Position numbers and translations under genes: made by a program. A stretch of DNA of 64,000 nucleotides. Origin: OCS116 cluster bacterium AG-435-F03. GTDB lineage: Bacteria > Pseudomonadota > Alphaproteobacteria > MED-G09. Of this stretch, positions 28,648 through 45,117 are shown piece by piece; the stretch's first letter is position 1; the number at the start of each line of letters is the position of its first letter. The notes under the pieces were generated by a model. The model made no database searches. It was not told the DNA's origin and was given only the letters and a program-made list of their open reading frames with translations. Where the stretch lies: positions 560,893-624,892 of the forward strand of contig QCOV01000001.1 in assembly GCA_003212795.1 (NCBI GenBank), written 5' to 3'.

Positions 28648-30009
28648 TCAATCAACATTTCCTATTACTTTAATTCTATTAGGGCCAATTTTAATTGTCT
28701 TAACTCTTTTGTAATTTTTATTTGGATCATATTTTATTATATCCATATTAAGATTTTCTGGAGTTAATGTTCCTAAATAATAAGACAGACGAAAAAGAGA
28801 TATATTTGAATCATTTTTTGCAGTCACTAATGAAACTCTAGCATCTAAATATTCTTGCTCAGCGTCGAGTATATCTAAAGTCGTTCTTGTTCCTAATTGA
28901 AATTCCTGCTTAACACCTTCAAGCGCAATATCAGTTGCTTGTGTTTGTTTCTCGGTAGCTGAAATTCTAAGTTTTGAAGCATTATATTCAGCAAAAGATT
29001 TTTTTACAAAACCTCTGATCTTTCTTTTTCCATCAATAATTAAATATTTATCCCTTGAATTAATTTCTTGAGCCTTCCTTATATTTGACCAATTCAATCC
29101 ACCATAAAAAATAGGTATTTTTACTTGCCCTGTAATTTGATACTGGTCAATATCATCGGACATAAGAAAAGATTGGTCTTCCGCATAAATATATTCTCCT
29201 CTTAATGATAATTGAGGTGAAAGCATGCTTTTTTTAGATGAAACATTGTAGCCAGATGATTTTTCAATGCTTTCATAATATTTTAATTGAGGGTTATTTT
29301 TTAAAGCGATCGAAATTGCTTCATTTTCATTTTGTGGCAAATCAAATTCTTTATTCCATTCTTCAAGGTTATTAGGATTTAATCCAATTATTGATCTGTA
29401 ATCCGCTTCCCTAGCCTTTAATAGACTTCTAGCATCAGCTAAATTTGATTGTGCCTGAGATAACCTTGCTTCTGCTTGCGCAACATCAGTTAATGTTAAT
29501 TCGCCAACTTCAAATTGTATTTTTGTAGCTTCTAATCGTTCACTCAGCACTTCAAAGTTATTCTGCTGTAATTTCACAATCTGTTCAGTTTTCAAATAAT
29601 TAAAATAAGCTTGAGCAGCTTCAAATAAAATACTTTGCTCTGAGTCTCTAAGGCTTTGTCTTCCTGCAGCAACAAGATTTATTGCGCTTAATCTATCATT
29701 AATTAACTTACCGCCTGAAAATATTTTTTGATTAATAAGAAGTGATCCTGCTAAAGGGTTAGTTTTAATTTTATTTAATTCACCATATTCAAGTGTATTT
29801 TCACTATAACTTCCAACAACCTCAATGCTTGGAAAAAATTGTGAAGAAGCAGCACTAACATTCTCATCTAATGATCTTAATTCTGCTCTTTTAGAGTTAA
29901 TTATAGGATTATTAATATAAGCGTTTGATAGGGCTGATGATAATGTTTCTGCTTTAGTATTGCTCACACCTAAAATAACTATTAAACCTATTATTATAAA
30001 TTTATTCAT
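28648..30009 (-). CDS. tolC: TolC family outer membrane efflux channel
   Basis: TolC forms the outer-membrane and periplasmic tunnel for type I secretion and RND/MFS efflux. From the ATG at 30009 (MNKFIIIGLIVILGVS), supported by AAGGTG six bases upstream, it gives 453 residues with a signal peptide cut near TKAET. Two OEP repeats follow, with long helical hairpins (VLSERLEATKIQFEVGELTLTDVAQAEARL and the second-repeat VKQEFQLGTRTTLDILDAEQEYLDAR). The GTG at 30018 used in the ORF track is less likely. Two inverted repeats lie upstream. It is the last gene of the minus-strand group before tRNA-Cys. Confidence 0.93.
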   Translation of the reverse strand: MNKFIIIGLIVILGVSNTKAETLSSALSNAYINNPIINSKRAELRSLDENVSAASSQFFPSIEVVGSYSENTLEYGELNKIKTNPLAGSLLINQKIFSGGKLINDRLSAINLVAAGRQSLRDSEQSILFEAAQAYFNYLKTEQIVKLQQNNFEVLSERLEATKIQFEVGELTLTDVAQAEARLSQAQSNLADARSLLKAREADYRSIIGLNPNNLEEWNKEFDLPQNENEAISIALKNNPQLKYYESIEKSSGYNVSSKKSMLSPQLSLRGEYIYAEDQSFLMSDDIDQYQITGQVKIPIFYGGLNWSNIRKAQEINSRDKYLIIDGKRKIRGFVKKSFAEYNASKLRISATEKQTQATDIALEGVKQEFQLGTRTTLDILDAEQEYLDARVSLVTAKNDSNISLFRLSYYLGTLTPENLNMDIIKYDPNKNYKRVKTIKIGPNRIKVIGNVD

Positions 30010-30025
30010 TTGTAACACCTTAAAA

Positions 30026-30041
30026 ATGACGCATGCGTCAT
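30026..30041. promoter_or_regulatory. Perfect 16-bp palindrome upstream of tolC
   Basis: ATGACGCATGCGTCAT is an uninterrupted palindrome, 16 bases before the tolC ATG and just downstream of a TATAAT box (30058-30063 on the minus strand). It could be an operator for a dimeric repressor or a very short hairpin in the leader. It is GC-rich for its surroundings, so chance is unlikely. Confidence 0.6.
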
Positions 30042-30066
30042 CTTTATAAATAATTACATTATAAAG
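30042..30066. repeat. Inverted repeat overlapping the tolC -10 region
   Basis: CTTTATAA and TTATAAAG flank a nine-base spacer and directly abut the 16-bp palindrome. The arm at 30059-30066 includes most of a minus-strand TATAAT box (30058-30063). No good -35 is evident. The pair of abutting symmetric elements suggests a regulated promoter, but A/T repeats are common here. Confidence 0.4.
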
Positions 30067-30145
30067 TAAAGAGAATTTCTAATTAGCCTTATTTTTACTT
30101 CAAATATGAACATTCAAATGATAACTATACATATACCACAAATGA

Positions 30146-30219
30146 GGCCACGTGGCGGAGTGGTTACGCAGCGGCCTGCAAAGCCGTGGACATCAGTTCG
30201 AATCTGATCGTGGCCTCCA
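30146..30219 (+). tRNA. tRNA-Cys (anticodon GCA)
   Basis: Acceptor stem GGCCACG/CGTGGCC, anticodon loop CTGCAAA (anticodon GCA) on a GCGGC/GCCGT stem with one G-U pair, T-loop GTTCGAATC, discriminator T (the cysteine identity base) and encoded CCA. Length 74. It is immediately followed by the OYE family gene. Confidence 0.97.
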
Positions 30220-30237
30220 TTTTTAGGATTCAATAAT

Positions 30238-31314
30238 ATGAATAAATTAAATAATAGTATTGTTTTTCCCTGCGGATTAAGTATGAAAAACAGATTTATG
30301 TTAGCACCATTAACAAACACACAAAGTTTTGAAGACGGAAAATTATCAGATGACGAATTTACATGGCTTACACTCAGAGCAAAAGGTAATTTTGGTATCA
30401 CTATGTCTTGCGCTTCACATGTTCAAGAGATAGGTAAAGGTTTTCCAGGTCAGTTAGGAATATTTGATGATAAACATATAGATGGACTAAAAAGACTTAC
30501 TGATGAAATAAGAAAATATGAAAGTTTATCTGTAGCTCAACTTCATCATGCAGGCATGAGATCTCCTGAGGATATTATTGGTGATAAGCCTGTTTGCCCT
30601 TCAGCAGATGAAGAAACTAAATCAAGATCGTTATCTAATGAAGAAGTTAATTTTTTAAGAGATGATTTTATTAACGCAGCAATAAGAGCAAAAAAATCTG
30701 GATATGATGGTATAGAATTGCATGGCGCGCATGGATATATTTTATGTCAGTTTTTAAGTTCATCAATTAATAAAAGAAAAGATGAATATGGTGGGTCACT
30801 TGAAAATAGATCAAGAATAATTTTTGAAATTATTGACGGCATAAGGTCAGAATGTGGAAAAGATTTTCTTCTTGGAATAAGGCTATCTGCTGAAAGATTT
30901 GGAATTAAGCTAGCTGAAAGTAAAATACTATGTCAAAAGTTAATTGATGATGGAAAAATTGATTTTTTAGATATTTCTTTATGGGATTCATTTAAAGACC
31001 CCGTTGAAGAAGAACATAAGGGCAAAACTCTTTTACAACACTTTACTGAATTAAATAGAAAAGAAGTTCTTCTGACTGTTGCTGGTAATATAAGAACTGG
31101 AGAAGATGTTAATAAAATAATTTCATCTAATGTTGATTTTGTTACCGTAGGAAGAGCAGCTATTTTGCATCATGATTTTCCAAATAAAGTTTTAGAGAAT
31201 CAGAATTTTATTCCTATTGATACGCCCTCACCTAAAGAACATCTAAGAAAAGAAGGATTAAGCGAGAAATTTATTGAATATTTAAAGGTTTTCAAGGGTT
31301 TTGTTGAAGAATAA
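30238..31314 (+). CDS. NADH:flavin oxidoreductase (Old Yellow Enzyme family)
   Basis: This 358-residue FMN TIM-barrel protein has motifs of the OYE family: an N-terminal FMN-contacting LAPLTNTQS, the substrate-anion histidine region VAQLHHAGM, the GYDGIELHGAHGYILCQFLSSSINKRKDEYGGSLENR signature, and VTVGRAAILHHDFP near the phosphate site. OYE members reduce activated alkenes or act in alicyclic and aromatic catabolism; no substrate can be named. It begins 18 bases after tRNA-Cys and converges on the P450 operon, ending 3 bases before the 38-residue ORF. Confidence 0.9.
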   Translation: MNKLNNSIVFPCGLSMKNRFMLAPLTNTQSFEDGKLSDDEFTWLTLRAKGNFGITMSCASHVQEIGKGFPGQLGIFDDKHIDGLKRLTDEIRKYESLSVAQLHHAGMRSPEDIIGDKPVCPSADEETKSRSLSNEEVNFLRDDFINAAIRAKKSGYDGIELHGAHGYILCQFLSSSINKRKDEYGGSLENRSRIIFEIIDGIRSECGKDFLLGIRLSAERFGIKLAESKILCQKLIDDGKIDFLDISLWDSFKDPVEEEHKGKTLLQHFTELNRKEVLLTVAGNIRTGEDVNKIISSNVDFVTVGRAAILHHDFPNKVLENQNFIPIDTPSPKEHLRKEGLSEKFIEYLKVFKGFVEE

Positions 31315-31317
31315 GGT

Positions 31318-31434
31318 CTACTTGTTCTTAGATTTTTTTTTAAAGTAAGCTAAATCTTTTTTTAATTGTTTTTGCCTTTCTTTATCGAGTTTAACATTAT
31401 TTCTTTTTGGTTCATTGCAAACTGATATACCCAT
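31318..31434 (-). CDS. 38-residue basic peptide at the end of the P450 operon
   Basis: The ATG lies one base after the FAH-family gene's TAA (TAA C ATG), typical of translational coupling. The product begins MGISVCNEPKRNNVKLDKER and ends with a lysine-rich helix (LAYFKKKSKNK). It was missed by the ORF track because of length. Its end abuts the convergent OYE gene with 3 bases between. Function is unknown. The coupling is the main support for it being real. Confidence 0.45.
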   Translation of the reverse strand: MGISVCNEPKRNNVKLDKERQKQLKKDLAYFKKKSKNK

Positions 31435-31435
31435 G

Positions 31436-32308
31436 TTAACCCTCAAATGGTTCGTTAATTATTTTATTTTCAATGTAACCAATTTCTGAGATTGAAACCT
31501 TAACAATATCTCCATTCTTCAAAAATACATCATCAACTACACCCACGCCGCTGGGTGTTCCAGTAAGAATAAGATCTCCTGGCTCAAGTGTAAAGGCAGT
31601 AGAAAGATGCTCAATAATATCATAACAATTAAATATCAAATGCTTAGTATTTGATTTTTGACGAACTTCACCATTTACTTCTGTTATTAAATCAAGATCG
31701 TGAGGATTTTTAATCTCTTCTTTAGTCACTATTGATGGTCCGAACGGACAATGAGTATCAAATGATTTACCTATAGTAAAAGTTGGTACACGCATTTGCC
31801 AATCTCTAACACTAATATCATTTCCGATGGTGTATCCCGCAATAACATCTTCCGCATTATCCTTTTTAACATGTCGACATTTTTTTCCTATAACTATAGT
31901 AAGCTCCCCCTCATAATCTAATTTGTCTGAAACAAAAGGTTTTTGGATGTCATCATAAGGACCATTAGCTGATAATGATTGTTTATTAAAAATCATAGGA
32001 ACCTCTGGCGTTGCCATATCTCTTCCAGAAGCTCTTATTTCTTCTAGATGATCTGCATAATTTAAACCTATTGCAATAATCTTTGGCGGTCGATTAATAG
32101 GCTTTACTATTCTAATATTGTTTAATTTTATAGAGATATCAGATTCCTTATAGAGCTTTTTTGCTTTATTCAATGTTTTCGTTCCACCCTCTAAAAAATT
32201 AAGCATATTCTTCGGAATCTCTTTATCTTGAGAAAAAGGTACAACTCCACCATCCCTGAGAGCTCCTATTTGTACTTCTTCATCTGTTTTATAGGAAATA
32301 AGTTTCAT
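31436..32308 (-). CDS. Fumarylacetoacetate hydrolase (FAH) family protein
   Basis: The 290-residue protein has the C-terminal FAH fold: IIAIGLNYADHLEE, the metal-binding glutamates and aspartate in YEGELTIVIG and TIGNDISVRDWQ, and GDLILTGTPSGVG. Family members hydrolyse or isomerise acylpyruvates and 2-hydroxy-diene-dioates at the end of aromatic ring cleavage. The N-terminal 70 residues form the small lid domain. It begins 2 bases after the glyoxalase-like gene and is coupled to the 38-residue ORF. The exact substrate cannot be inferred. Confidence 0.92.
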   Translation of the reverse strand: MKLISYKTDEEVQIGALRDGGVVPFSQDKEIPKNMLNFLEGGTKTLNKAKKLYKESDISIKLNNIRIVKPINRPPKIIAIGLNYADHLEEIRASGRDMATPEVPMIFNKQSLSANGPYDDIQKPFVSDKLDYEGELTIVIGKKCRHVKKDNAEDVIAGYTIGNDISVRDWQMRVPTFTIGKSFDTHCPFGPSIVTKEEIKNPHDLDLITEVNGEVRQKSNTKHLIFNCYDIIEHLSTAFTLEPGDLILTGTPSGVGVVDDVFLKNGDIVKVSISEIGYIENKIINEPFEG

Positions 32309-32310
32309 AA

Positions 32311-33057
32311 TTATATTAACTCGATTTTAGTGCCACAAATTTCAATTTCATTTTCTTTATATTTTTGAAATATTTTATCTTTAAGTTCGGAATTATTAAT
32401 TTTTAAAGTTAGTTGTGACAGGTAATCTATCCTCTTAATATCATCATACATAAAGAAAATTTTGAAATCAGCTCCTTCAATAATGTATATGTCTCCAGAT
32501 TCATTTACAGAAAGATCAAGAAAAGATCCCCATTGATTTGCTAATTTACTTGGGTTTTTACAACTCATAGATATAGACGAAATTGAACATTGATTGTTTG
32601 TTTTCAATTGCCAATCATCGCCAGCCCATTGCCAATATGAATTTTTATCTTGCCAATCTTTTTTGTTCATTGAATCAACAGAAATAATTAATCCGCCAAT
32701 ATCTTTAGGGTGATAATGAGTAGCCTTAACTCCATTTTCTAAATCAGTTTTCCAAATACTTCTAATATTAAATTTATCTGCTTTCTGCCTATAAAGATCT
32801 GCATTTTCGCACTCAAATATCAACATGTATCCCGCGTCACCATTCATTTTAGACATAAATCTTTCAGCGGTTGTATCTTGTTTAAATGGAGAAACGACCT
32901 CAATAAAATTTCCATCAATCTCCAATAAACCATTTTCTAATCCAAAATGACTAACGCCTTCATCTCTAAAGCAAACTTCAGAACCAATAATAAAAGAAAA
33001 GTTTTTTAACGCATCTTCAAGGTCTTTTGCAACAAAACAAATTTGGCGTAATCTCAA
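32311..33057 (-). CDS. Glyoxalase-like (VOC superfamily) protein
   Basis: The 248-residue protein starts with a VOC module: RLRQICFVAKDLEDALKNFSFIIGSEVCF, then LENGLLEIDGNFIEVVSPF, suggesting two tandem beta-alpha-beta units in each half. It matches the Glyoxalase_3-like (PF13468) pattern rather than a classic extradiol dioxygenase, as a clear histidine-histidine-glutamate metal triad is not obvious. In this operon it may act as an isomerase or a ring-cleavage-type enzyme. It lies 6 bases after the P450 and 2 before the FAH gene. Confidence 0.72.
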   Translation of the reverse strand: MRLRQICFVAKDLEDALKNFSFIIGSEVCFRDEGVSHFGLENGLLEIDGNFIEVVSPFKQDTTAERFMSKMNGDAGYMLIFECENADLYRQKADKFNIRSIWKTDLENGVKATHYHPKDIGGLIISVDSMNKKDWQDKNSYWQWAGDDWQLKTNNQCSISSISMSCKNPSKLANQWGSFLDLSVNESGDIYIIEGADFKIFFMYDDIKRIDYLSQLTLKINNSELKDKIFQKYKENEIEICGTKIELI

Positions 33058-33063
33058 TTTATT

Positions 33064-34344
33064 CTACCTTTTTGGATTTGGAGTAAACTCTATATGAAGT
33101 TCTTTAAGAGATCTCAATAGATAATGAGGATGATACTTAAAATTATTTTTTCCTTCGGCAAACCACATATCTTCAAAAGAATCTAATGCTGCTTTAAAGC
33201 CCCAATATAACTCTCTTCTTGCTAGAGGCGCTCCTAAGCAATGATGAATGCCTGAACCAAAAGCCATATGAGAGCCAGCTTTCTTTCTTTCTAAATTAAT
33301 TTCTTCTGGTTTCTCAAAGTAATTTTCATCTCTATTTGCAGCAGCATATCTAACATTAATTATTGATCCAGCTGGAATTTTTACTCCATTTAATTCTACA
33401 TCTTTATGAGTATTTCTCATCAAACTTTGAACAGGTGATTCAAGCCTTAATACCTCTTCAACAAAAACTTTCAAATATTTATCTGAATTCTCTTTGAGCA
33501 TACCCCATACATCTTTTTTCTCGATTAGCAATTTTATACCAGCAGACAAAGCATTTGTTGTGGTTTCACTTCCGCCAACAAAGGTATCCGCCATCATTTC
33601 TGCGTGTAATTCATTATCATTAAGAGTTCTACCCCATTCCTCAATTTCAGTATTAACCAACTCACTAAGTAATGTGTCATTAGGGCATTCTCTTAATTTT
33701 TCAAAAATAGGTTGAAAATAATGTTGCCCTTCTATTTCTCGCTCGATAGTTTCTAGCTCTTCTTCCTGCGACAACATCATTCCAATTCTATGAAAAAAAG
33801 CATCAGTAGATTTTTTAATTTTCCACAAATCATCTTCATTTTCTATCCCCATTTGAATGCCTATTATTTTTAAAGGAAGAGGAATAGAAAATTGTTTAAC
33901 CCAATCACAGTAGCCATCATCTAAAAATGCATCAATAAGCTCATAGGATAAGCTTTCAACATTTGGCTCTAGTTCTTTAATTTTACCCGGTCTGAATGCT
34001 TGGTCAAAAATTGATCTCATTTCTTTGTGATTTGGATCATCCCTACCAGCAAGAGTAGGTGCTGGAACCCAGCCTTTTTCTTTGAATAATTGAGTGCCTT
34101 TATTTACATGTTCCGTATTAATATTGCCTTCGGCTTTTTGCCCTGCAGCTCCATACGAGCTTTTAAAATTCTCAGTATCTTTAAGAACATTTCTAACATC
34201 TTCATAACGAGTAACAATAAAGAAACCTGTTTTTGGATCTTGATAAACAGGAGCATTATCTCTTAATTTTTTATAAGCATCATAAGGGCATTGCTGTATT
34301 TCAACATCTGTTAAATCTACCTCTTCATGGTTAATATCAGTCAT
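33064..34344 (-). CDS. Cytochrome P450
   Basis: This soluble bacterial P450 (426 residues, no membrane anchor) has the I-helix oxygen-binding motif GGSETTT (about residues 257-263), the K-helix ExxR as EVLR (297-300), and the heme loop FGSGIHHCLG with the thiolate ligand C369. The acidic-alcohol pair (E-T) is intact, so it should be a monooxygenase. No ferredoxin or ferredoxin reductase gene lies in the operon, so electron partners must come from elsewhere. The substrate is unknown; the neighbouring desaturase and oxidoreductase hint at a lipid or terpenoid. Confidence 0.95.
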   Translation of the reverse strand: MTDINHEEVDLTDVEIQQCPYDAYKKLRDNAPVYQDPKTGFFIVTRYEDVRNVLKDTENFKSSYGAAGQKAEGNINTEHVNKGTQLFKEKGWVPAPTLAGRDDPNHKEMRSIFDQAFRPGKIKELEPNVESLSYELIDAFLDDGYCDWVKQFSIPLPLKIIGIQMGIENEDDLWKIKKSTDAFFHRIGMMLSQEEELETIEREIEGQHYFQPIFEKLRECPNDTLLSELVNTEIEEWGRTLNDNELHAEMMADTFVGGSETTTNALSAGIKLLIEKKDVWGMLKENSDKYLKVFVEEVLRLESPVQSLMRNTHKDVELNGVKIPAGSIINVRYAAANRDENYFEKPEEINLERKKAGSHMAFGSGIHHCLGAPLARRELYWGFKAALDSFEDMWFAEGKNNFKYHPHYLLRSLKELHIEFTPNPKR

Positions 34345-35358
34345 TTACATCCTCACCATAAGCTTTCCTTTATGACCTCCATTAAATAGCATTTGAATAG
34401 ATTTAGAAAAGGTTTCAATGCCTTCTTCATAATGAGTTGGAACAATAATATCACCATTATTATATAATTTAGTTAATTCATTTATGGCTTCTGGAAATTT
34501 TTCTGAAAAATGCATAACTGTAAAACCTTCCATTCTTGAATATCTTTCTGCAAGTTTAAGGTATGCGCTAGGGCCTAATATATTATCAAAATTATTATAC
34601 TGTGAAATTGCTCCACATATAGCAATTCTAGCTCCTGTGTTTAGATTATTAAGAACATCATTTAAAATTTCTCCGCCTACATTATCGAAAAATACATCAA
34701 TTTTATCTTTAGCTATACTTTCTAATTCTTCTCTAACATTCTGATTTTTATAATCAATGGCATAATCAACCTTTATTTCATTAAGTAGAAAGTTACTTTT
34801 TTCTTCACCTCCAGCTATTCCTATAACTTTTGCACCTTTAGTTTTTGCTAATTGACAAACAATGATACCTACACCACCTGCAGCTCCTGAGACAACAACT
34901 AATTCGTCCTTTTTAACTTTTCCAACATCAATTAATCCAAAATAAGCGGTTAATCCGGTTGTCAAACCAAGTAAGCCAATATTTAACTCGGGATCTGCAC
35001 TATTACTCTCAACCTTTTGATAGGCTGCAGAGTGCATGGTAATATGCGTTTGAGCCCCCATAGGACCGCTTACAAAATCACCTTCCTTGAATTTATCAGA
35101 TTTACTAATTAAAACTTCACCGATTCCTAAAGCACCTATTCCTTGATTTAGCTGCGATGTATCATGATAGCTACCCTCATCAAATGTTGTTCTAATCCAT
35201 GCATCAATAGCTATTGTATCAACTCTAATAAGAAGCTCATCATCATTAGGCTCGATACATTCTTCATCAATTATTTTAAACAAATCATCTGTAATTTCAT
35301 TTTCGGGTCTTTTTAATAAAATAGCTTTCTTATTTTTTGGTAAATTAGTTAATGTCAT
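34345..35358 (-). CDS. Zinc-independent MDR family NADP-dependent oxidoreductase
   Basis: I use ATG 35358 (MTLTNLPKNKKAILL), with AAAGGA upstream, since the ORF-track start at 35397 would overlap the desaturase. The 337-residue protein resembles the prostaglandin/curcumin reductase (CurA/PTGR) branch of the medium-chain dehydrogenase superfamily: GIGALGIGEVL, GLTTGLTAYFGL, and the NADP Rossmann motif VSGAAGGVGIIVCQLAK. The structural zinc cysteines are absent. It would reduce alpha,beta-unsaturated carbonyls with NADPH. It lies directly upstream of the P450 (no gap). Confidence 0.87.
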   Translation of the reverse strand: MTLTNLPKNKKAILLKRPENEITDDLFKIIDEECIEPNDDELLIRVDTIAIDAWIRTTFDEGSYHDTSQLNQGIGALGIGEVLISKSDKFKEGDFVSGPMGAQTHITMHSAAYQKVESNSADPELNIGLLGLTTGLTAYFGLIDVGKVKKDELVVVSGAAGGVGIIVCQLAKTKGAKVIGIAGGEEKSNFLLNEIKVDYAIDYKNQNVREELESIAKDKIDVFFDNVGGEILNDVLNNLNTGARIAICGAISQYNNFDNILGPSAYLKLAERYSRMEGFTVMHFSEKFPEAINELTKLYNNGDIIVPTHYEEGIETFSKSIQMLFNGGHKGKLMVRM

Positions 35359-35372
35359 TTTAATCCTTTGTA

Positions 35373-36218
35373 TTAGATACCGCCATCGAGGACACAATTT
35401 TTCTTTTCTAATATATGTTTCATATCTCTAAATGCACTTGGTGTTTTATGTAAAGGTATTGAAGGATATAAATGATGGATTATGTGATACTCCATACCTT
35501 GTGTAAGTATAGTTCCAGTATAGGCTTTCCACCCTCGAGTATCGTTATATCTACCCTTATTTTCCATTGGTTTATGAGGTAAAAATGATAGAGTAATTTG
35601 TAAATATGCAGTACCTATTAATCTTGGTAACCACCAAATTGATAATGCTATTAATCCATAACCAGATAATGCTAAAAATGCTAATAAAGCCCAATGAAAC
35701 CAGAAAAATACAAAATGCTCTTGCAATGCCTTACTGCTTATATTTTTTTTGAAGAAATCTGATTGAAGGCCATAACCAGCATTAGGCTGTCTTTGTAAAA
35801 CACCACAAACCCACAATGAATGTATAAAGTTTTTTGATTTTGTTCCTATATCAGGATCTTTATTTGGATCATTTGTATGCTTATGATGAAGCATATGTGT
35901 TTCCTTTAGAAGCTTATATCCAGTTAAAAGAGGTATAACTGAAATATAACCTACCAGTTCATTAATCCAAAAATAAGGAGAATTCCTTTTAATGATATTA
36001 CCATGCTGCGCTTCATGCGATGGAAGATATGCCAAACAACAATTTATTGTAGCGATAATAAATATAATCCATAAAGGTAGAATATTCATAAAAGCTATTG
36101 GCCACAAAGATATCCAAATAAGAAAATTACTAATGCCCCATACCACATAAATCCATGTATCGTTAAAAAGATACTTTCTAGCTATCTCCTGTTCTTCACG
36201 TAACAAAGACTCAGTCAT
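35373..36218 (-). CDS. Membrane fatty acid desaturase / hydroxylase family protein
   Basis: I take ATG 36218 (MTESLLREEQ), since it gives an ATGA overlap with the preceding 62-residue gene; the ORF-track start 36224 is a TTG. About 281 residues have several membrane helices and the di-iron histidine boxes HEAQH, HMLHHKHTND and HIIHHLYPSIP, which coordinate the active-site irons. The third box differs little from the beta-carotene hydroxylase/ketolase class, so an acyl or carotenoid-like substrate is possible. It is 14 bases upstream of the MDR gene. Confidence 0.9.
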   Translation of the reverse strand: MTESLLREEQEIARKYLFNDTWIYVVWGISNFLIWISLWPIAFMNILPLWIIFIIATINCCLAYLPSHEAQHGNIIKRNSPYFWINELVGYISVIPLLTGYKLLKETHMLHHKHTNDPNKDPDIGTKSKNFIHSLWVCGVLQRQPNAGYGLQSDFFKKNISSKALQEHFVFFWFHWALLAFLALSGYGLIALSIWWLPRLIGTAYLQITLSFLPHKPMENKGRYNDTRGWKAYTGTILTQGMEYHIIHHLYPSIPLHKTPSAFRDMKHILEKKNCVLDGGI

Positions 36219-36403
36219 ATCCAACTTCCTCTAATAGTAGCAATAAGCCCCCAAGAAAAACCTAGAAGCAGAGCAAAGTAAATATTCGATATAATTGGAA
36301 ACGAAAAATTATATAAATTCATAATTTCAACAAGTACTGGCGCTAAAATAAACAATCCAAAAAATAATGGGCCACATTTATTTAGAAAAGAAATAAACTT
36401 CAT
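36216..36403 (-). CDS. Small two-helix membrane protein, first gene of the P450 operon
   Basis: This 62-residue protein (start MKFISFLNKCGPLFF) has two hydrophobic helices and ends IATIRGSWI. Its TGA (36217-36215) overlaps the desaturase ATG as ATGA, a strong sign that it is real and co-translated. The ORF-track coordinates are 36215-36403. The family is not recognised; it may help the desaturase fold or anchor. It is the first gene of the operon, which begins about 120 bases from tRNA-Asn on the opposite strand. Confidence 0.6.
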
Positions 36404-36520
36404 TGCTTATTATACCTTTTTTTGCATTCTTCGGTCAAATCAACGAAATGTTAAATAATAATTTTAAATAAATATAATATGGAAAAAATACAAATCATCT
36501 GCTAAAAAACATCCAACTGT

Positions 36521-36596
36521 TCCCCGGTAGCTCAGTTGGTAGAGCAAATGACTGTTAATCATTGGGTCGCTGGTTCGAGTCCGGCCCGGGGAGCCA
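36521..36596 (+). tRNA. tRNA-Asn (anticodon GUU)
   Basis: Acceptor stem TCCCCGG/CCGGGGA, D-arm GCTCAGTTGGTAGAGC, anticodon loop CTGTTAA (anticodon GTT) on an AATGA/TCATT stem, T-loop GGTTCGAGTCC and encoded GCCA. Length 76. A TATAAT at 36473-36478 upstream may belong to its promoter. It is the only RNA gene between the P450 operon and the COQ4-like gene. Confidence 0.97.
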
Positions 36597-36670
36597 CTTC
36601 TTCAAAAAAATTGAAAAATATCTTATAAGATGGTATTTAATGAAAATAAGAACAATAATAAGTTATTGAA

Positions 36671-37198
36671 ATGAAAAGATTAAAGTATCAAGAACAAGAT
36701 TGCGAGTTAACACTTAAACAAGGTTTAGACGAATATCTAGATCATATTGGTCCAGAAGCAAAACTTACTGGCGATGAAAATAACGGCCTAGATGAGGGAT
36801 ATCGTCAATTTCTTCTTGCGCATGATTGTCAGCATGTTATTTTTGGGATAGCGCTTTCCCTAGAAGAAGAGAGTGTTTTGGATACATATGCTATTCAGGG
36901 TACAAGTGGTATTCCTTGGAAAAAAACATTTAAGTATGCTTTTTCGGGCGGCGAACTAACTCAACTATATAAAAAATTATATAAAGAGTATGGTTTAATG
37001 AGGATCTTTTCATTAGTCTTTAGAGCTAGAAAACAAAAGATAATGGCCTGGAAAAGAGTCAAACTCATGAAAAAGAAGTGGCCTTGGCTTATCCCTGAAA
37101 ATTATTTCTCTCGAACAATTAAAGATTTAAGAGATGAATACAATATTAAAGTTTTATCTGAAGAAGAACTTTACTTTGAAGACCCAACATATATGTAA
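36671..37198 (+). CDS. COQ4-like protein (ubiquinone biosynthesis family)
   Basis: The 175-residue protein keeps the COQ4 zinc motif HDxxH-(x)11-E as HDCQHVIFGIALSLEEE, at residues 51-67, with H51, D52, H55 and E67. COQ4 in eukaryotes and some bacteria takes part in ubiquinone ring modification (C1 decarboxylation/hydroxylation in recent work). The rest of the protein is divergent and I could not match it further, so a different role is possible. It is a single plus-strand gene after tRNA-Asn, converging on the GH3 gene. Confidence 0.6.
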   Translation: MKRLKYQEQDCELTLKQGLDEYLDHIGPEAKLTGDENNGLDEGYRQFLLAHDCQHVIFGIALSLEEESVLDTYAIQGTSGIPWKKTFKYAFSGGELTQLYKKLYKEYGLMRIFSLVFRARKQKIMAWKRVKLMKKKWPWLIPENYFSRTIKDLRDEYNIKVLSEEELYFEDPTYM

Positions 37199-37214
37199 TT
37201 TTATAGTATAATTT

Positions 37215-39158
37215 TTATTCTTCTAAATAACTTAATCCATGACCGTATCTAAAAATTGGATTTCTTGTGTCATCAGGAACATCCGAAAGTTGATCATTCA
37301 CTTCTTTCATAGATGAGGGGATATCAAAAGGAAGTTTTCCTGTTGGATTAAAATTACCAAAAATTACTTCTAATACAACTTCATCAAAAACACCAAAAAC
37401 ACCTATCAATCCATGGCTTAGTTTTTCAATTTCAGTAAGAATTGCTGGTCTGTTTAGGTCAACAACAATGATTAGTTTGCTCAATGAAGAATATTTTTTT
37501 AATTTAGATAAAATTTTCTCATCGTAATTCAAATCATTATTTGGAAATATAGTACTTAAAAAATTATCAATCGGCCTATCAATACCGGATGGCTGATTTC
37601 CATTAAAAACAGTTCGTAACTGAACAATGATATAATCAGAATCTTTAGGATCATTAGTAATTTCACAATATTTCTTTATTTCTTTCTTATCTAAACCATC
37701 AACAAAAATTTTAATATTTTTTTTAAGTGGTAAAATTTCTTTATTATTATCAATTTGATTTTTTAGTAACACTATTGATTTTTTTTGAGCGGTTAAACCT
37801 TTTTTTATAAAGGTCTCTGTTCCAACTCTTTTAGCAACTAAATTCTCATCAACGAAAGGATTGTCAAATAAACCTAACTCAAACTTGTTTATTAATATTT
37901 TTTTTACTGAATAATTAATCCTATCTTCAGATATTTCATTCTTTTTCACTAAATCAACAAGAAACTCAGGCGAGCTTTCGCCTCCATATTGATCTACACC
38001 TGCATCAATAGATTTCTTATATCTTTCTCTTAAGGTTAAGTCACCAACGCCCCAATGTCGTCCAGTTATTATGCCCCAATCAGTGCATATAACCCCATCA
38101 TATCCAAGTTTATCCCTTAATAAATGGGTTAAGATATCTTTATTATAAGCCATTGCAACATTTTCGGAAGTTTGATCAACTGGAATACCATAATATGGCA
38201 TAATGACCTTTAAATTATTATTAATAGCTCTCTTAAAAGGCTTTAAATGATATTCAAAATTATTTCCTGGATAGACTTGATTTTGTCCTGAGTATAGATG
38301 TGGGTCAAATCCTTCTTCCTGAGGACCTCCTCCAGGAAAATGTTTAACCATTGTTAAAACACTATTACTGTTAATCTTTTTGCCCTGAAAACCATCCATA
38401 TAAGCGATAGTAAAGTCTGAAGAAAGATCAGCATTTGAACCAAAAGTACCAAAATTTCTTGACCATCTTGGCTCAGTGGCAAGATCAGACATAGGATGCA
38501 AAGCTGTTCTTAAGCCGACAGATAGATACTCTTCTCTAGCTATTTCTGCAAATTCTTTAATTATTTCAGGTTGTCTAGTTGCAGCAAAACCTAATTGCGA
38601 TGGCCATTTTGAAAAGCCTTTTAATGAAAAAGCTGCCACACCTCCTCCTCGTGGCACCTCATGAATTGGATCAGAACTTATTGTTAAAGGAATACCTAAC
38701 CTAGATCTTTCGGCAATTTTCTGAAGTTGATTTATTTTTTTTGCTAATTGCGAAGGATTAGGTGAGCCGTATAAATTGTAATGTGTAATATTTTTGTTCA
38801 AAATTAATGATTCTGTTGTATCTCCTCTTCCGCTTGCTAGATTCATAATTTCAGAAATTGTACCACCATTAATAGAAATTGGAGGATGAAACATTTGTCC
38901 AGCCTTTTCTTCAATTGTCATTTTTTTTAATAAATCACTAGCTCTTTGTTCGGGGGTAAAATCAATGTTCTCATAAATTTCAATTTTGCCATTTTTATAG
39001 AGATCTCTATATACTTTATTATTCTTAATTATAGTTTTAGGTTTTTTATAAATTGAAAAATAAATTTTCAATTTAATATAAAATAATTTTGGAATATTTA
39101 GCGCTATCTTAAAAAGAATTTTTATTATGTCTAAAAAATTATTTCTAAATAATTTCAT
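37215..39158 (-). CDS. Glycoside hydrolase family 3 protein (beta-glucosidase-like)
   Basis: The 647-residue protein has a GH3 N-terminal TIM-barrel (RASDLLKKMTIEEKAGQMF, VLTMVKHFPGGG) with the catalytic nucleophile D360 in VICTDWG, and a C-terminal GH3 domain (SIVLLKNQ, ILPLKKNIKIFVDG, GKLPFDIPSS). The layout is beta-glucosidase-like rather than NagZ, which lacks the second domain. The N-terminal 40 residues are hydrophobic and basic (FLDIIKILFKIALNIPKLFY) without a cleavage site, and may tether the enzyme to the inner membrane. It overlaps the glucokinase gene by 14 bases. Confidence 0.86.
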   Translation of the reverse strand: MKLFRNNFLDIIKILFKIALNIPKLFYIKLKIYFSIYKKPKTIIKNNKVYRDLYKNGKIEIYENIDFTPEQRASDLLKKMTIEEKAGQMFHPPISINGGTISEIMNLASGRGDTTESLILNKNITHYNLYGSPNPSQLAKKINQLQKIAERSRLGIPLTISSDPIHEVPRGGGVAAFSLKGFSKWPSQLGFAATRQPEIIKEFAEIAREEYLSVGLRTALHPMSDLATEPRWSRNFGTFGSNADLSSDFTIAYMDGFQGKKINSNSVLTMVKHFPGGGPQEEGFDPHLYSGQNQVYPGNNFEYHLKPFKRAINNNLKVIMPYYGIPVDQTSENVAMAYNKDILTHLLRDKLGYDGVICTDWGIITGRHWGVGDLTLRERYKKSIDAGVDQYGGESSPEFLVDLVKKNEISEDRINYSVKKILINKFELGLFDNPFVDENLVAKRVGTETFIKKGLTAQKKSIVLLKNQIDNNKEILPLKKNIKIFVDGLDKKEIKKYCEITNDPKDSDYIIVQLRTVFNGNQPSGIDRPIDNFLSTIFPNNDLNYDEKILSKLKKYSSLSKLIIVVDLNRPAILTEIEKLSHGLIGVFGVFDEVVLEVIFGNFNPTGKLPFDIPSSMKEVNDQLSDVPDDTRNPIFRYGHGLSYLEE

Positions 39159-40074
39159 TTTTACAAACCTCTAAAGCTCCCATATAGCCTAAATCTTTCT
39201 CGTTTATTAAGAAAACAGGAATATTTGATAAATATTTATCCATCTTTTTACTTTCTTCAAAAATATTCCTAAATTCTGAAAAATCATTATCCTTTAATAA
39301 ACTTTTACTTAAAGATCCAGCTAGGTAAACACCTCCACTTGAACCAGTTATTAAAGCTGTATATTTTGCAAAAATGGCAAAAATCTTTATCAAAAGAATT
39401 TTAGTTTCATCACAAAAAGCGTCATCTGTTATATTATTTAGAATATCTTCATTACTGTATTTATGATCATAGTCTTGAGAGAGAAAACCATAGATATATG
39501 AAATACCTTTACCTGATAACAAATCCTCAAAAGTAGCCATTCTTTTATTTTCTTTCTTAAAATCTTCTAATAAGTGTTGTATTTCATCACCCATGTTAGG
39601 AATATTAAGGTGCCCTGCTTCAGTAGCTATAGACTCCCCATTAATTAAAATTGATAACCCTAAGCCAGTTCCAGGAATAATTAATATCTTTGGTCCTTGT
39701 GGAAAATTTTTATTGCTTCCAATAAATTTTAATTTATTTTTAGGGTAATTATTAAGAGCATAACATTGCAATTGTACATCATTAAATAATCTTAAGCCTC
39801 TAGGAAAAAAACTTTTTTCCATTTCTTTTACATTAAAAGAAAAGTCTATATTAACAAAATTAATTTCATTACCAATAATTGGGGCAGCAACACCTAAAAC
39901 ACCTGAGAGATTTTCTTTAGAAATATTAAACTCATTTAAATAATGATTAAGAAGATCACCAAGGGTTTTAAAGTTACTAATTTTATATGAAGATTTATAA
40001 ACTAAATCTTTGAAATCATTTACGATTGCTAACCTTGCGTTTGTTGCACCTAGATCTGCTATTAAAGTATTAAT
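39145..40074 (-). CDS. glk: Glucokinase, probable AUU start codon
   Basis: The ORF track starts at an internal ATG (39822, 225 residues) and misses the ATP-binding N-terminus. The same frame is open upstream without a stop and reads NTLIADLGATNARLAIVND, the phosphate-binding motif of Glk (E. coli LVGDVGGTNARLAL). The likely start is ATT at 40074-40072, since GAGG lies 5 bases before it; no ATG, GTG or TTG is in frame upstream before the TAA. This gives 309 residues, close to E. coli Glk (321). The body has GTGLGLSILI and TEAGHLNIP glucose-binding motifs. It is coupled with the GH3 gene, so glucose released by GH3 is phosphorylated. Confidence 0.82.
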   Translation of the reverse strand: MNTLIADLGATNARLAIVNDFKDLVYKSSYKISNFKTLGDLLNHYLNEFNISKENLSGVLGVAAPIIGNEINFVNIDFSFNVKEMEKSFFPRGLRLFNDVQLQCYALNNYPKNKLKFIGSNKNFPQGPKILIIPGTGLGLSILINGESIATEAGHLNIPNMGDEIQHLLEDFKKENKRMATFEDLLSGKGISYIYGFLSQDYDHKYSNEDILNNITDDAFCDETKILLIKIFAIFAKYTALITGSSGGVYLAGSLSKSLLKDNDFSEFRNIFEESKKMDKYLSNIPVFLINEKDLGYMGALEVCKNEII

Positions 40075-40155
40075 TTTTTCCTCAAATTGTTAGAAAATAT
40101 AATTATTTAATATTTATTATATACGAAATTGAGAGATGATATAAATAACTTATTC

Positions 40156-40184
40156 TTAGATTTTTTATAAGGAATCGGTATAAT
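40156..40184 (+). promoter_or_regulatory. Candidate promoter of the lipoprotein-amine oxidase-CFA group
   Basis: A perfect TATAAT lies at 40179-40184, 24 bases before the lipoprotein ATG. The element 17 bases upstream, TTAGAT, matches the -35 consensus poorly. The location just before a plus-strand gene after a divergent gap supports it, but it is a weak call. Confidence 0.35.
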
Positions 40185-40207
40185 GGAAGAGTAATTTGGT
40201 ATTTGTT

Positions 40208-40462
40208 ATGAGAAAAATTCTATCATATTTCTTTATTATTAATTTAGTTTTATTTGGTTTAATCGCTTGCGAAACAAGTGATAATTCTACAGGATTTTAT
40301 ACAGGTGATTCACTTGCTACAAAAAAGACTAATCAGGTTGAAGAAATTTCAGTTGAACAAGAAAAAGAACAAATTACTGAAAAAGAAACATTAGCTGAAA
40401 CTAATCCTATAATAATTGAAGAATCTTCTGAAATAACCGAAGAAGAATTAGATTATAAATAA
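40208..40462 (+). CDS. Small acidic lipoprotein
   Basis: I use ATG 40208 (MRKILSYFFIINLVL), since the upstream TTG at 40196 adds nothing plausible. The lipobox LIAC places the acylated cysteine at about residue 21. The mature part is about 64 residues, very rich in glutamate and threonine (VEEISVEQEKEQITEKE) and without a fold I recognise; it is probably disordered. It is 23 bases upstream of the FAD gene and could share its transcript. Function unknown. Confidence 0.55.
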   Translation: MRKILSYFFIINLVLFGLIACETSDNSTGFYTGDSLATKKTNQVEEISVEQEKEQITEKETLAETNPIIIEESSEITEEELDYK

Positions 40463-40485
40463 TAAAATTAATTTGTGAGGTTATT

Positions 40486-41742
40486 TTGGAAATTGCCGTA
40501 ATAGGGTCTGGTATATCCGGTCTTTCAGCATCATTATTTTTATCTCAAAAGAATAATGTTACCTTATATGAAAAGAATGATTATTTAGGTGGACACACCA
40601 ATACAAAAACAATCAAATATAAGGATAAAAGAATTAATGTTGATACTGGATTTATAGTTTTTAACAAACTTAATTATCCTAACTTAATGAAATTATTTGA
40701 TTTTCATAATGTTACTTATGAATATAGCGATATGAGTTTATCTGTATCAAATATAAATAATGGTATTGAGTGGTCTGGAAAAAGTATTAATACCATTTTT
40801 GCTGATCGAAAAAGAATATTTGATATTAATTTTTTGAAATTTTTAATTGATATTTTGAAGTTTAATAAATTTGTTAAAAACAATATTGACGAATTGTCAT
40901 TAGACAAACAACCGTTGGGCGAATGGTTGAATAATAAAAATTTTAGCAAACAATTTCAAGAAAACTATATATTGCCGATGAGTGCCGCTATTTGGTCAAT
41001 GAATTTCAATGATGTTTTAAATTACCCTATTTCTAATTTATTTAGTTTTTTTAATAACCATAGACTTCTACATGAAAAAAAATTGAGACCACAATGGTTA
41101 ACGGTAAGCAATGGAAGTAAATCTTATATAGATAAAATATTGAAATCAGTTAACATCAATAAAAAATTAAACTCAAAAATTCAGAAAATAAATACTAATG
41201 ATAATAAATTTTCTTTAATTGACATAAATGGAATTCAAAAAGAATATGATAAGATAATATTTTCTATTCATCCTGAAAAAATACTAGAAATCAAAAATGA
41301 CTTCGACAGCAAAATAATTAATATCTTAGGTCTATTTAAAACAAGCAAGAATAAAGCTTACTTACATTGTGATGCATCTCTAATGCCTAAAAATAGAAAA
41401 GTATGGTCATCCTGGAATGTCTTTTCAGATAAAGAGATAAATAAAGTTTCACTAACTTATTGGATGAATAAATTGCAAAATATAGATAACAATTATCCGA
41501 TCTTTGTCACATTAAATCCCCTCCATTTACCGGATGAGAATAAAATCTTTGATGTTATAGATTATGAACATCCAATCTATGATGAAAATGTAATTAATGG
41601 TCAATTACAACTAGATAACATTCAAGGCTATAAAAATTATTGGTATTGTGGCGCATGGACAGGAAATGGTTTTCATGAAGCCGGTTTATCATCGAGTTTA
41701 ATGATATCAAAACATTTAAATGGAGTTATACCTTGGTGTTAA
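40486..41742 (+). CDS. FAD-dependent amine oxidase-like protein
   Basis: The 418-residue flavoprotein starts with the FAD-binding GxGxxG motif IGSGISGLSASLFL, followed by YEKNDYLGGHTNT, and ends with the C-terminal FAD site YWYCGAWTGNGFHEAGLSSSL. The start is TTG, supported by GTGAGG five bases before it. This family (NAD(P)-binding, amine oxidase-like) is linked in many proteobacteria to DUF1365 and CFA synthase genes, as here, and has been proposed to desaturate or modify methylated fatty acids. It overlaps DUF1365 by 10 bases. Confidence 0.9.
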   Translation: MEIAVIGSGISGLSASLFLSQKNNVTLYEKNDYLGGHTNTKTIKYKDKRINVDTGFIVFNKLNYPNLMKLFDFHNVTYEYSDMSLSVSNINNGIEWSGKSINTIFADRKRIFDINFLKFLIDILKFNKFVKNNIDELSLDKQPLGEWLNNKNFSKQFQENYILPMSAAIWSMNFNDVLNYPISNLFSFFNNHRLLHEKKLRPQWLTVSNGSKSYIDKILKSVNINKKLNSKIQKINTNDNKFSLIDINGIQKEYDKIIFSIHPEKILEIKNDFDSKIINILGLFKTSKNKAYLHCDASLMPKNRKVWSSWNVFSDKEINKVSLTYWMNKLQNIDNNYPIFVTLNPLHLPDENKIFDVIDYEHPIYDENVINGQLQLDNIQGYKNYWYCGAWTGNGFHEAGLSSSLMISKHLNGVIPWC

Positions 41743-42503
41743 AATCATTAATATTCGAAGGCCAGGTAAGGCATAAAAGATACCATCAAAAGAAGCATCA
41801 GTTTAAATATAATGTTTTTAATATGTTAATTGATATTGATGATTTAAAATATTTAGATAAGAAACTTAATCTCTTTTCATTCAATAAGTTTAATATTTTC
41901 TCTTTTTATGAAAAAGATCATGGATTGAAGAATGGGACCCCGGTAAAAGACTGGATTTTAAAAGTTATCTCAAAAAGTGACATTGATATCGAGGCAAATA
42001 ATTTGAAAATATATTGCTTATGTTATCCAAGAATATTGGGTTATGTATTTAATCCGATTACAGTCTGGTCAATTTACGACAAAGATGAACTTAAAATTTT
42101 AATTTATGAAGTTAGAAACACATTTGGAGAAGATCATTCTTATGTTTTTATGTTAGACAGCGAAGAACAAAAATTAAATCATAGTAGAAAAAAACTATTT
42201 CATGTTTCTCCTTTTATTAATTTAAATGCTGAGTACAATTTTTCTACAGAAATAAATAAAGATTTTACTAGTATAATTATTAAAGAGAGCACAGATAAAA
42301 AACCATTGTTGTTAGCTTCTTTTAATGGAAAGTCAGTTGAATTAAATGACCTACACTTGATAAAGGTTTTTTTTAAATACCCTCTAATGACATTAAAAGT
42401 AATATTTGGGATTCACTTTCATGCTTTATTCTTATACCTGAAAAAGGTAAAATTTGAACCACATCCAAAAAATAAAGTTGATGATATAAGTTTTAGTGAT
42501 TGA
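41733..42503 (+). CDS. DUF1365 family protein
   Basis: The 256-residue protein fits DUF1365: an N-terminal FEGQVRHKRYHQKKHQFKYNVFNMLIDID, followed by YPRILGYVFNPITVWSIYDK, EVRNTFGEDHSYVF and a C-terminal helix with HFHALFLYLKKVKF. It occurs almost always between an amine-oxidase-like FAD gene and a CFA synthase. The function is not known biochemically; a link to fatty acyl modification is inferred from context. The start is TTG at 41733 or GTG at 41736, inside the end of the FAD gene. Confidence 0.88.
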   Translation: MVLKSLIFEGQVRHKRYHQKKHQFKYNVFNMLIDIDDLKYLDKKLNLFSFNKFNIFSFYEKDHGLKNGTPVKDWILKVISKSDIDIEANNLKIYCLCYPRILGYVFNPITVWSIYDKDELKILIYEVRNTFGEDHSYVFMLDSEEQKLNHSRKKLFHVSPFINLNAEYNFSTEINKDFTSIIIKESTDKKPLLLASFNGKSVELNDLHLIKVFFKYPLMTLKVIFGIHFHALFLYLKKVKFEPHPKNKVDDISFSD

Positions 42504-42509
42504 AAATTA

Positions 42510-43667
42510 ATGTATACAAAAAAATATATAAATAAAATTGGATCAAAAATAAAACAAGGGTCATTGAGAGTTGTATTTCCTAATAATGAAGAATTTTTAT
42601 TTAAAGGAAGGGATGGGCTTCATGGTGAATTAATATTAAAATCTTATAAACCAATATTTAGAACATTAGTAGGCGGTCATCTTGGATTTGCTGAAAGTTA
42701 TTTAAAAAATGAATGGGATAGTCCAAACCTTGAAAATCTTTTGGAATTAATGCTTCAAAATTTACCTAATGAATTTAAAGCTAAAAGCAGTTTATATAAA
42801 ACATATAATCGTTTTATTCACTTTTTGAGAGAAAATACAAAAATAAGAGCAAAAAAAAATATTGAATATCATTATGATATCGGCAATTCTTTTTATGAGA
42901 TTTGGCTTGATAAAAGCATGACATATTCAAGCGCTCTATTTAAAAACGATAGGGAAAACCTGTATGAAGCTCAGAGGAATAAATATCAAACTTTAGTTGA
43001 GCAATTAGACATTAAACCACATCATAGCGTTTTAGAAATTGGCTGTGGATGGGGTGGTATGGCAGAATACATTGGTAAAGAACTTGGTTGTAATTATACA
43101 GGAATAACAATTAGCCCAAGCCAAAAAGATTTTACAGAAGATAGGATAAAAAGAAATAGCTTAAAAAACTCAGAAGTTCATTTATGCGATTATAGAGATT
43201 TAAAAGGGTCTTTTGATAGAATAATCTCTATTGAAATGATTGAAGCTGTAGGTGAGAAATATTGGGACACATATTTTTCAAAAATAAATGAAGTGCTTAA
43301 GAAAGGTGGTTTAGCTGGTATTCAAATGATATTAATTGATAATAAACAATTCGATAGCTATCGTAAGTCTGTTGACTTTATTCAAAAATATATTTTTCCT
43401 GGCGGAATGCTTCCCTCACATGAAAAAATTAGAGAAAGCTTTAATAAAAATGGTTTAACTGAGATATCAAATAATTCTTTTGGAAAATCCTATGCTAAAA
43501 CACTAAATATATGGAAAACAAATTTTAACAACTCCATAGATAAATTACTATCAATTGGCATAGATGGAAATCTTCATAGATTATTCAATTATTATTTTTC
43601 TTATTGTGAGGCAGGGTTTTCTAATGGACAAATAGATGTTGCCCAAAAAATAATTAAAAAAAGTTAA
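42510..43667 (+). CDS. cfa: Cyclopropane-fatty-acyl-phospholipid synthase family methyltransferase
   Basis: The 385-residue SAM methyltransferase has the CFA motifs: the [24 protein letters not shown] substrate loop (about 120-144), the SAM motif [17 protein letters not shown] (173-189) and the bicarbonate-site region [13 protein letters not shown]. It transfers a methyl (or methylene) group to unsaturated acyl chains of phospholipids. Final residues overlap the convergent rplQ stop codon (TTAA). It is the last gene of the plus-strand lipid set, 6 bases after DUF1365. Whether it makes cyclopropane or methylated products cannot be told. Confidence 0.92.
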
Positions 43668-44083
43668 CTTACTTCTTCAATTTCTTCACTAAGATCTGGA
43701 CCGGAGTCTTGTCCTAAAGCATCAGGGTTTCTGTCAACTAATTCAATAACTGCCATAGGTGCTGAGTCGCCATAACGAAATCCAGCTTTTAAAACACGTG
43801 TATAGCCACCATCTCTTTCTTTATATCTCTCAGAAAGTTCATCGAAAATTTTTGATGTCCATTTTTTTTCAGGAAGAATAGAGTATGCTTTTTTTCTTGA
43901 TGCTAAATCACCCTTTTTACCTAATGTAATTAGTTTATCTACAAAGGGAGATAGTTCTTTTGCTTTAGGTAAAGTTGTTTGGATTTGTTCATGCTTTATT
44001 AATGCCACAGCCATGTTACCAAGCATTGCTTTTCTATGGCTTGAAGTTTTATTCAGTTTTCTTTTTGATTTTAAGTGACGCAT
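43664..44083 (-). CDS. rplQ: 50S ribosomal protein L17
   Basis: L17 lines the peptide exit tunnel surface. The 139 residues begin with the invariant [20 protein letters not shown], with [13 protein letters not shown] and [24 protein letters not shown] following. The final 20 residues ([18 protein letters not shown]) are an acidic tail beyond the core. It is the last gene of the alpha operon, 11 bases after rpoA. The stop overlaps the convergent cfa stop. Confidence 0.96.
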
Positions 44084-44094
44084 TTTTTTTCCAA

Positions 44095-45117
44095 TTAAAA
44101 TTTATCTGCAGCATGCTTCCTTGCTAATTCTTCAATATTTTCAGGTGGCCAATTTGGTATATCCATTCCAAGCGATAAATTCATTTCACTTAACACTTCT
44201 TTTATTTCATTGAGAGATTTTCTTCCAAAATTTGGAGTTCTTAACATTTCATTTTCAGACTTAAGAATTAAATCACCAATATATACAATATTATCATTTT
44301 TTAAGCAGTTAGCAGATCTAACTGATAGCTCAAGTTCATCAACTTTCTTAAGAAGAGATGCATTAAACTCTAATTCATCTTCGCTTTCTTCTATGACTTC
44401 TTCTTCCGGTTCATCAAAATTAATAAAAGGATTAAGTTGATCAATTAAAATTCTAGCAGAAAATGCAAGCGCATCTTCAGGTTTAACTGATCCGTCAGTT
44501 TCAATTGATAATGATAACCTATCATAATCAAGAAATTCTCCTTCTCTAGCATTATCAACTTCATATGAAACATTTGTTACTGGACTATAAATACTGTCCA
44601 CAGGAATCATACCTATCGGATCATCTTCGTTTCTATTTTCTTCAGCAGAAACATATCCATTTCCATTCCTAATATATAATTCCATTCTAAAAGAAATATT
44701 TTCATCAAGGGTACATAAGACTAAATCAGAATTCATAACTTCAATATCATCAGTTGTAGATATATCTCCAGCAACTACAACTCCGGGACCTGTTTTTTCA
44801 ATTGTGAGAATTTTACTACCATTAAAGTCAGCTCCAAATATTATTTTTTTAATATTCAATGCAATATCAATGACATCTTCTCTAACTCCGGAAATTGAAG
44901 AAAACTCATGCAATACGCCATCAATTTTAAATCCATAAACTGCAGATCCTTGAAGAGAAGATAAAAGCACTCTTCTTAGGGCATTGCCTAGAGTTATTCC
45001 ATATCCTCTTTCCAGTGGCTCAACTACTAATGTAGATTTCTTTAGAGGATCTGAGCCAGCCTCCATATTTACTACATTAGGTTTAAGTAATTCTCGCCAA
45101 TTTTTTTCAATACTCAA
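44095..45117 (-). CDS. rpoA: DNA-directed RNA polymerase subunit alpha
   Basis: The alpha subunit dimerises to scaffold the core polymerase. The 340 residues have the N-terminal dimerisation domain ([23 protein letters not shown]) and a C-terminal domain that contacts UP elements and activators ([35 protein letters not shown]). An acidic linker ([14 protein letters not shown]) joins them. It is placed between rpsK and rplQ in the usual alpha operon. Confidence 0.97.

Follow-up and report, generated by a model that had tools for sequence, protein, structure and literature searches.

Seven co-directional genes on the minus strand of a small marine bacterial genome form a real, genus-conserved operon in which known enzyme families occur in a new combination. 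They were found in the window, that is the whole stretch of 64,000 nucleotides that was analysed, and they run from 36403 to 31318 in the order TM62-DES-MDR-P450-VOC-FAH-s38 (Table 1). With a probability that we put at about one half, the operon encodes an oxidative route for a hydrophobic, membrane-soluble lipid (fatty-acyl) or terpenoid. The genome (G000; 1.44 Mb, 95.8% complete) has PS1 clade AG-343-O05, OCS116 cluster AG-430-B22 and a Rhodobiaceae MAG as its closest named relatives. Bacteria of the PS1/OCS116 group are marine plankton with small genomes, and the present organism is free-living and oceanic. Eight P450 genes are kept despite the small genome, alongside 12 MDRs, and the operon offers a defined candidate for the function of such enzymes.

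Table 1. Positions of the features discussed. Positions refer to the window unless a locus (L) is named.
Feature	Position	Strand	Remarks
Promoter-like site	36409..36438	-	TTGACC-18-TATAAT; 5 bp before TM62 ATG
TM62, 62-aa two-helix membrane protein	36215-36403	-	Own family (A2); no Pfam match
DES, membrane di-iron desaturase/hydroxylase	35373-36218	-	PF00487 FA_desaturase, 2.4e-32
MDR reductase, ADH_N_2 (prostaglandin/curcumin enone reductase) type	34345-35358	-	PF16884 + PF00107
Cytochrome P450	33064-34344	-	PF00067, 3.7e-31; GGSETT, ExxR and heme-Cys motifs
VOC-fold protein, TTG start	32311-33057	-	AF2 pLDDT 93; sub-threshold Glyoxalase_3 match
FAH hydrolase	31436-32308	-	PF01557 FAA_hydrolase, 4.9e-70
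s38, 38-aa conserved peptide (MGISVCN...)	31318-31434	-	dN/dS 0.03 or zero amino-acid change
Old-yellow-enzyme ene-reductase (OYE), convergent neighbour	30238..31314	+	PF00724
h175, 175-aa protein	36671-37198	+	Coq4-like HDxxH-x11-E motif
Glucokinase-like gene	39145-40032	-	Listed ORF short
Predicted ufaD-ufaO-ufaM-type operon	40486-43667	+	Amino_oxidase, DUF1365, CMAS (Pfam); ends against rplQ
Extradiol dioxygenase, FAD_binding_3 monooxygenase, SDR between VOC and FAH	L028:2214-7725	-	Sister-genus cluster
TM62-desaturase pair, tandem duplicate (G362)	L158:7361-9548	+	
TM62 downstream of DES (G209)	L160:7744-8927	-	Flipped order

Gene order and selection within the genus

An earlier note on this DNA had described seven minus-strand genes with tight junctions, all of which were recovered. 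From 5′ to 3′ the junctions are an ATGA overlap (TM62/DES, -4), 14, 0 (TAA-ATG), 6, 2 and 1 bp (TAA-C-ATG). Of the enzyme families named at that time, Pfam likewise confirmed FA_desaturase, MDR (ADH_N_2 and ADH_zinc_N), P450 and FAA_hydrolase. The seven-gene run is the longest of the window outside ribosomal clusters. Spacing alone is nevertheless no evidence for an operon, because tight packing is normal in this genome, gaps of 20 bp or less being present in 38 of the 53 other same-strand neighbour pairs of the window. Judging from the genomes compared, it is conserved gene order, not spacing, that exceeds chance and supports the cluster. Three other genomes of the genus (L009, L010 and L011; four with the window) have exactly this order, and dN/dS was 0.03–0.21 in 20 of 21 gene comparisons, the remaining one (s38 against L010) being undefined with zero amino-acid change. 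Such purifying selection establishes that all seven genes are real, including the one for the 38-residue s38, whose family starts with MGI(S/P)VCN and adjoins FAH in the genus of the window and in two sister genera.

Within the genus (g1) the interval reads rplQ, ufaM-O-D, glucokinase, GH3, h175, tRNA-Asn, operon, OYE, tRNA-Cys, tolC, and OYE adjoins the operon in the members in which the interval is assembled. Three further members (G001, G005 and G006) gave no hits to the operon, which we do not accept as real loss. The contig begins inside tolC in G001 and stops inside GH3 in G005, and G006 is without tolC altogether; with the interval interrupted or missing in these assemblies, absence is not demonstrated. 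A plasmid context was also rejected, as the plasmid search gave matches of only 34–35% for the P450 and 25% for the desaturase.

The promoter-like site upstream of TM62 is the only 11/12 sigma-70-like match in 30000–44200 and is kept in the three other genus members; its counterpart in the sister genus is degenerate. Taken as a class, promoter matches showed no enrichment relative to shuffles. The position of the site would fit a near-leaderless transcript, and the seven genes are probably co-transcribed.

The enzymes and a proposed oxidative route

The most specific new point to emerge from these comparisons is the pairing of DES with TM62, a protein previously unnamed. The TM62 gene abuts the desaturase at every examined close-homologue locus (E below about 1e-89) holding both ends, and none was found beside distant desaturases at the loci examined. 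Strong desaturase matches are rare; of 398 other genomes in the phylum, 4 had one at E below 1e-40. In other Alphaproteobacteria the pair has been duplicated in tandem in one genome and occurs in flipped order in another (Table 1). Such constancy suggests that the membrane di-iron enzyme has a small partner subunit, a role that TM62 may fill.

DES shares three histidine boxes (HEAQH, HMLHH and HIIHH) and the family fold with CrtR-type and other PF00487 membrane desaturases, and H68/H72, H108/H111/H112 and H245/H248/H249 are conserved (A1). The best NCBIfam model for DES is the CrtR beta-carotene hydroxylase, which would suit a carotenoid or retinoid modification in which DES hydroxylates a beta-ring and the remaining genes break down products of the ionone type. 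That proposal is very improbable, and DES was rejected as a CrtR enzyme, since its score of 85.2 bits falls far under the cut-off of 475; the constant two-helix partner gene is a further difference from CrtR. Foldseek of the DES model (pLDDT 80) yielded only two weak significant matches, both to chloroplast FtsHi motor complexes, and gave no functional clue.

In the P450, the heme-ligating C369, E297-R300 of the ExxR motif and the acid-alcohol pair E260/T261 are invariant (A3). Its relatives are 75–80% identical in the sister genera and 53–72% identical in P450-rich Alphaproteobacteria, where no DES was found beside them. Some relatives are clustered with genes for Rieske oxygenases, a CoA ligase, an SDR, an ADH_N_2 MDR and a TonB receptor, and this catabolic setting fits the oxidative remodelling that had been suggested from the gene content. 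The best relatives of solved structure are the class I bacterial enzymes CYP150, CYP142 and CYP125, which are of the ferredoxin type and to which similarity is moderate (best phmmer E 3.9e-48). The earlier remark that no ferredoxin is present holds for the operon but not for the genome, which encodes elsewhere two putidaredoxin-like 106-aa 2Fe-2S ferredoxins, each beside a flavoprotein reductase gene (L195, L196); these pairs could serve the P450. Our search of the literature on PS1/OCS116 genomes found no P450 pathway.

The MDR has the architecture ADH_N_2 plus ADH_zinc_N and scored 248 bits with the curcumin reductase model, below its cut-off of 440 bits. MDR and OYE families reduce enones. 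The catalytic set of FAH is complete, with H87/E90, E133/E135, D164 and K181 invariant (A5), and corresponds to the His-Glu dyad, ExE...D metal site and Lys of acylpyruvase FAHD1 and HpcE-type hydrolases, while its scores are below every NCBIfam equivalog cut-off. For the VOC protein the glyoxalase-like call was borne out by a confident VOC fold resembling HPPD in the AF2 model, though Pfam gave only a sub-threshold match. The conserved 2-His-1-carboxylate metal triad is absent, with zero invariant His in A4, and a role as a type I extradiol dioxygenase or ring cleaver was rejected on this ground.

The step order and substrate class that we infer for an oxidative route are as follows. The TM62-DES membrane unit would desaturate or hydroxylate the substrate within the bilayer, and the P450, with ferredoxins from other loci as electron donors, would oxygenate it. 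MDR, possibly together with the neighbouring OYE, would reduce the resulting enone, and FAH would hydrolyse or decarboxylate a beta-dicarbonyl-type product, while the VOC protein may act other than as a dioxygenase, for instance by isomerisation or binding. This route is favoured by the order kept under purifying selection in four genomes, by the conserved catalytic residues of DES, P450 and FAH, by the catabolic clusters around relatives of the P450 and the extradiol dioxygenases paired with relatives of FAH, and by the ferredoxin-reductase pairs of a genome rich in P450s and MDRs. It is weakened by an operon that has no regulator, as had been noted before, likewise no transporter, and nothing that names a substrate. 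As in the earlier note, no established pathway is known to us that has this combination, and a limited literature search returned none.

Reshuffled blocks in the sister genera

Throughout the family, which has three genera, the operon genes lie as sub-blocks in the interval bounded by rplQ and tolC. In g2 the interval holds rplQ, ufaM-O-D, one or two MDR genes, a divergent TM62-DES-P450, 2-oxoglutarate dehydrogenase genes and tolC; FAH and s38 are located elsewhere in the genome, and no g2 genome searched yielded a VOC homologue. In g3 (G008) it holds rplQ, a glucokinase-like gene, GH3, h175, TM62-DES-MDR, VOC, an extradiol dioxygenase, a FAD_binding_3 monooxygenase, an SDR, FAH, s38, DoxX and tolC, the linkage of TM62-DES-MDR to VOC spanning a contig break at which the MDR pieces overlap. 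The P450 of G008, 80% identical, sits elsewhere, 5 kb from the OYE orthologue. Gene order is therefore intact within the genus of the window and broken or reshuffled in its sister genera; what the family shares is a block of varying make-up rather than a fixed cassette. Beyond the family only the pairing of TM62 with the desaturase persists. TM62-DES and the P450 each have other partners elsewhere, and what the earlier note would have counted as refutation is thus seen by half.

These differences in membership (VOC in no g2 genome, the P450 moved in g3) and the occurrence of TM62-DES on its own count against a single oxidative route, and in a genome as compact as this one short gaps do not prove a single pathway. 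Two or three modules (TM62-DES-MDR, P450 and VOC-FAH-s38) might instead have been packed under one promoter in a streamlined genome without a common pathway. We regard this as an unlikely but serious alternative. In its favour, short gaps prevail in the window, the blocks part in the sister genera, and TM62-DES and the P450 have separate partners elsewhere. Against it, a single interval, rplQ-tolC, holds much of the same set in three genera although genes have been gained and lost, and within the genus the order does not vary. The holding together of blocks over three genera also speaks for the oxidative route.

It had further been noted that FAH and VOC proteins usually act on ring-cleavage or acylpyruvate products. 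The relatives of FAH are indeed linked to ring cleavage, being paired with an extradiol dioxygenase in L097 and, in G008, accompanied by an extradiol dioxygenase, a flavin monooxygenase and an SDR. The window operon shares FAH with both of these meta-cleavage clusters, and VOC, MDR and s38 orthologues with that of G008, but it has neither a ring-cleaving dioxygenase nor a flavin monooxygenase. A search of G000 and of other g1 and g2 genomes for homologues of this dioxygenase of G008 found none. With no homologue found in the genome of this enzyme, the one ring-cleaving family covered by the search, and a VOC protein that lacks the metal triad, aromatic ring cleavage is unlikely in this organism, and that part of the earlier interpretation is not upheld. 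FAH and VOC could still be remnants of a cluster with a flavin monooxygenase and an extradiol dioxygenase, now acting on a leftover or different substrate. The run MDR-VOC-EDO-FAD_binding_3-SDR-FAH-s38 in G008 and the EDO-FAH pair in L097 (EDO, the extradiol dioxygenase) speak for such an origin. The lack of an EDO homologue in the g1 and g2 genomes searched speaks against it, and we consider it improbable.

Neighbouring genes and a possible link to furan fatty acids

A separate, complete three-gene operon, which the earlier note had not mentioned, lies on the opposite strand, 4.1 kb from the start of the seven-gene operon. By Pfam families and by the gene order of R. palustris it is predicted to encode UfaD (amine-oxidase-like), UfaO and UfaM; the roles of ufaD-ufaO-ufaM in furan fatty acid biosynthesis and the R. 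palustris gene set are described in PMC7380195. The closest known counterpart is the furan fatty acid operon of Rhodobacter sphaeroides (RSP1091/RSP1090) and Rhodopseudomonas palustris (RPA2571-2569), to which the three genes correspond in the same order. None of the seven genes is a ufa gene, UfaD being a flavin amine-oxidase-like desaturase whereas DES is a di-iron enzyme.

The seven-gene operon might tailor or degrade furan or methyl-branched fatty acids made by the adjacent genes, which we consider rather doubtful. DES and P450 would then oxidise the chain or ring, MDR and OYE would reduce a ring-opening enedione, in line with the enone chemistry of their families, and FAH would cut a dicarbonyl, an assignment of roles that is equally doubtful. 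Besides the proximity in the window, ufaDOM lies directly beside MDR and TM62-DES-P450 in six g2 genomes, and the rplQ-ufaMOD end of the interval is common to g1 and g2. This linkage may, however, be a single inherited arrangement; moreover, G008 keeps TM62-DES-MDR-VOC-FAH yet no ufaO was found there, and TM62-DES is either distant from the ufa genes or on another contig in G026 and G035. More speculative still is the combined proposal in which a rare alphaproteobacterial membrane di-iron desaturase has TM62 as a new small integral subunit and, together with P450, MDR, VOC and FAH, would constitute an undescribed pathway for ufa-made furan or methyl-branched membrane fatty acids. Because the readings considered here overlap, the probabilities that we attach to them do not sum to one. 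If functional, the link to ufa would give access to what becomes of furan fatty acids in bacteria; no described pathway for this was found in the literature.

Two further genes of the interval deserve mention. For the h175 protein, neither a Pfam match above the cut-off nor a relevant PDB match was obtained; the protein is conserved (82%) in a sister genus next to TM62-DES. In the glucokinase-like gene, homology to two relatives continues in frame past the first ATG, GTG or TTG, and the gene therefore probably starts at an unusual codon (perhaps ATT) near 40080.
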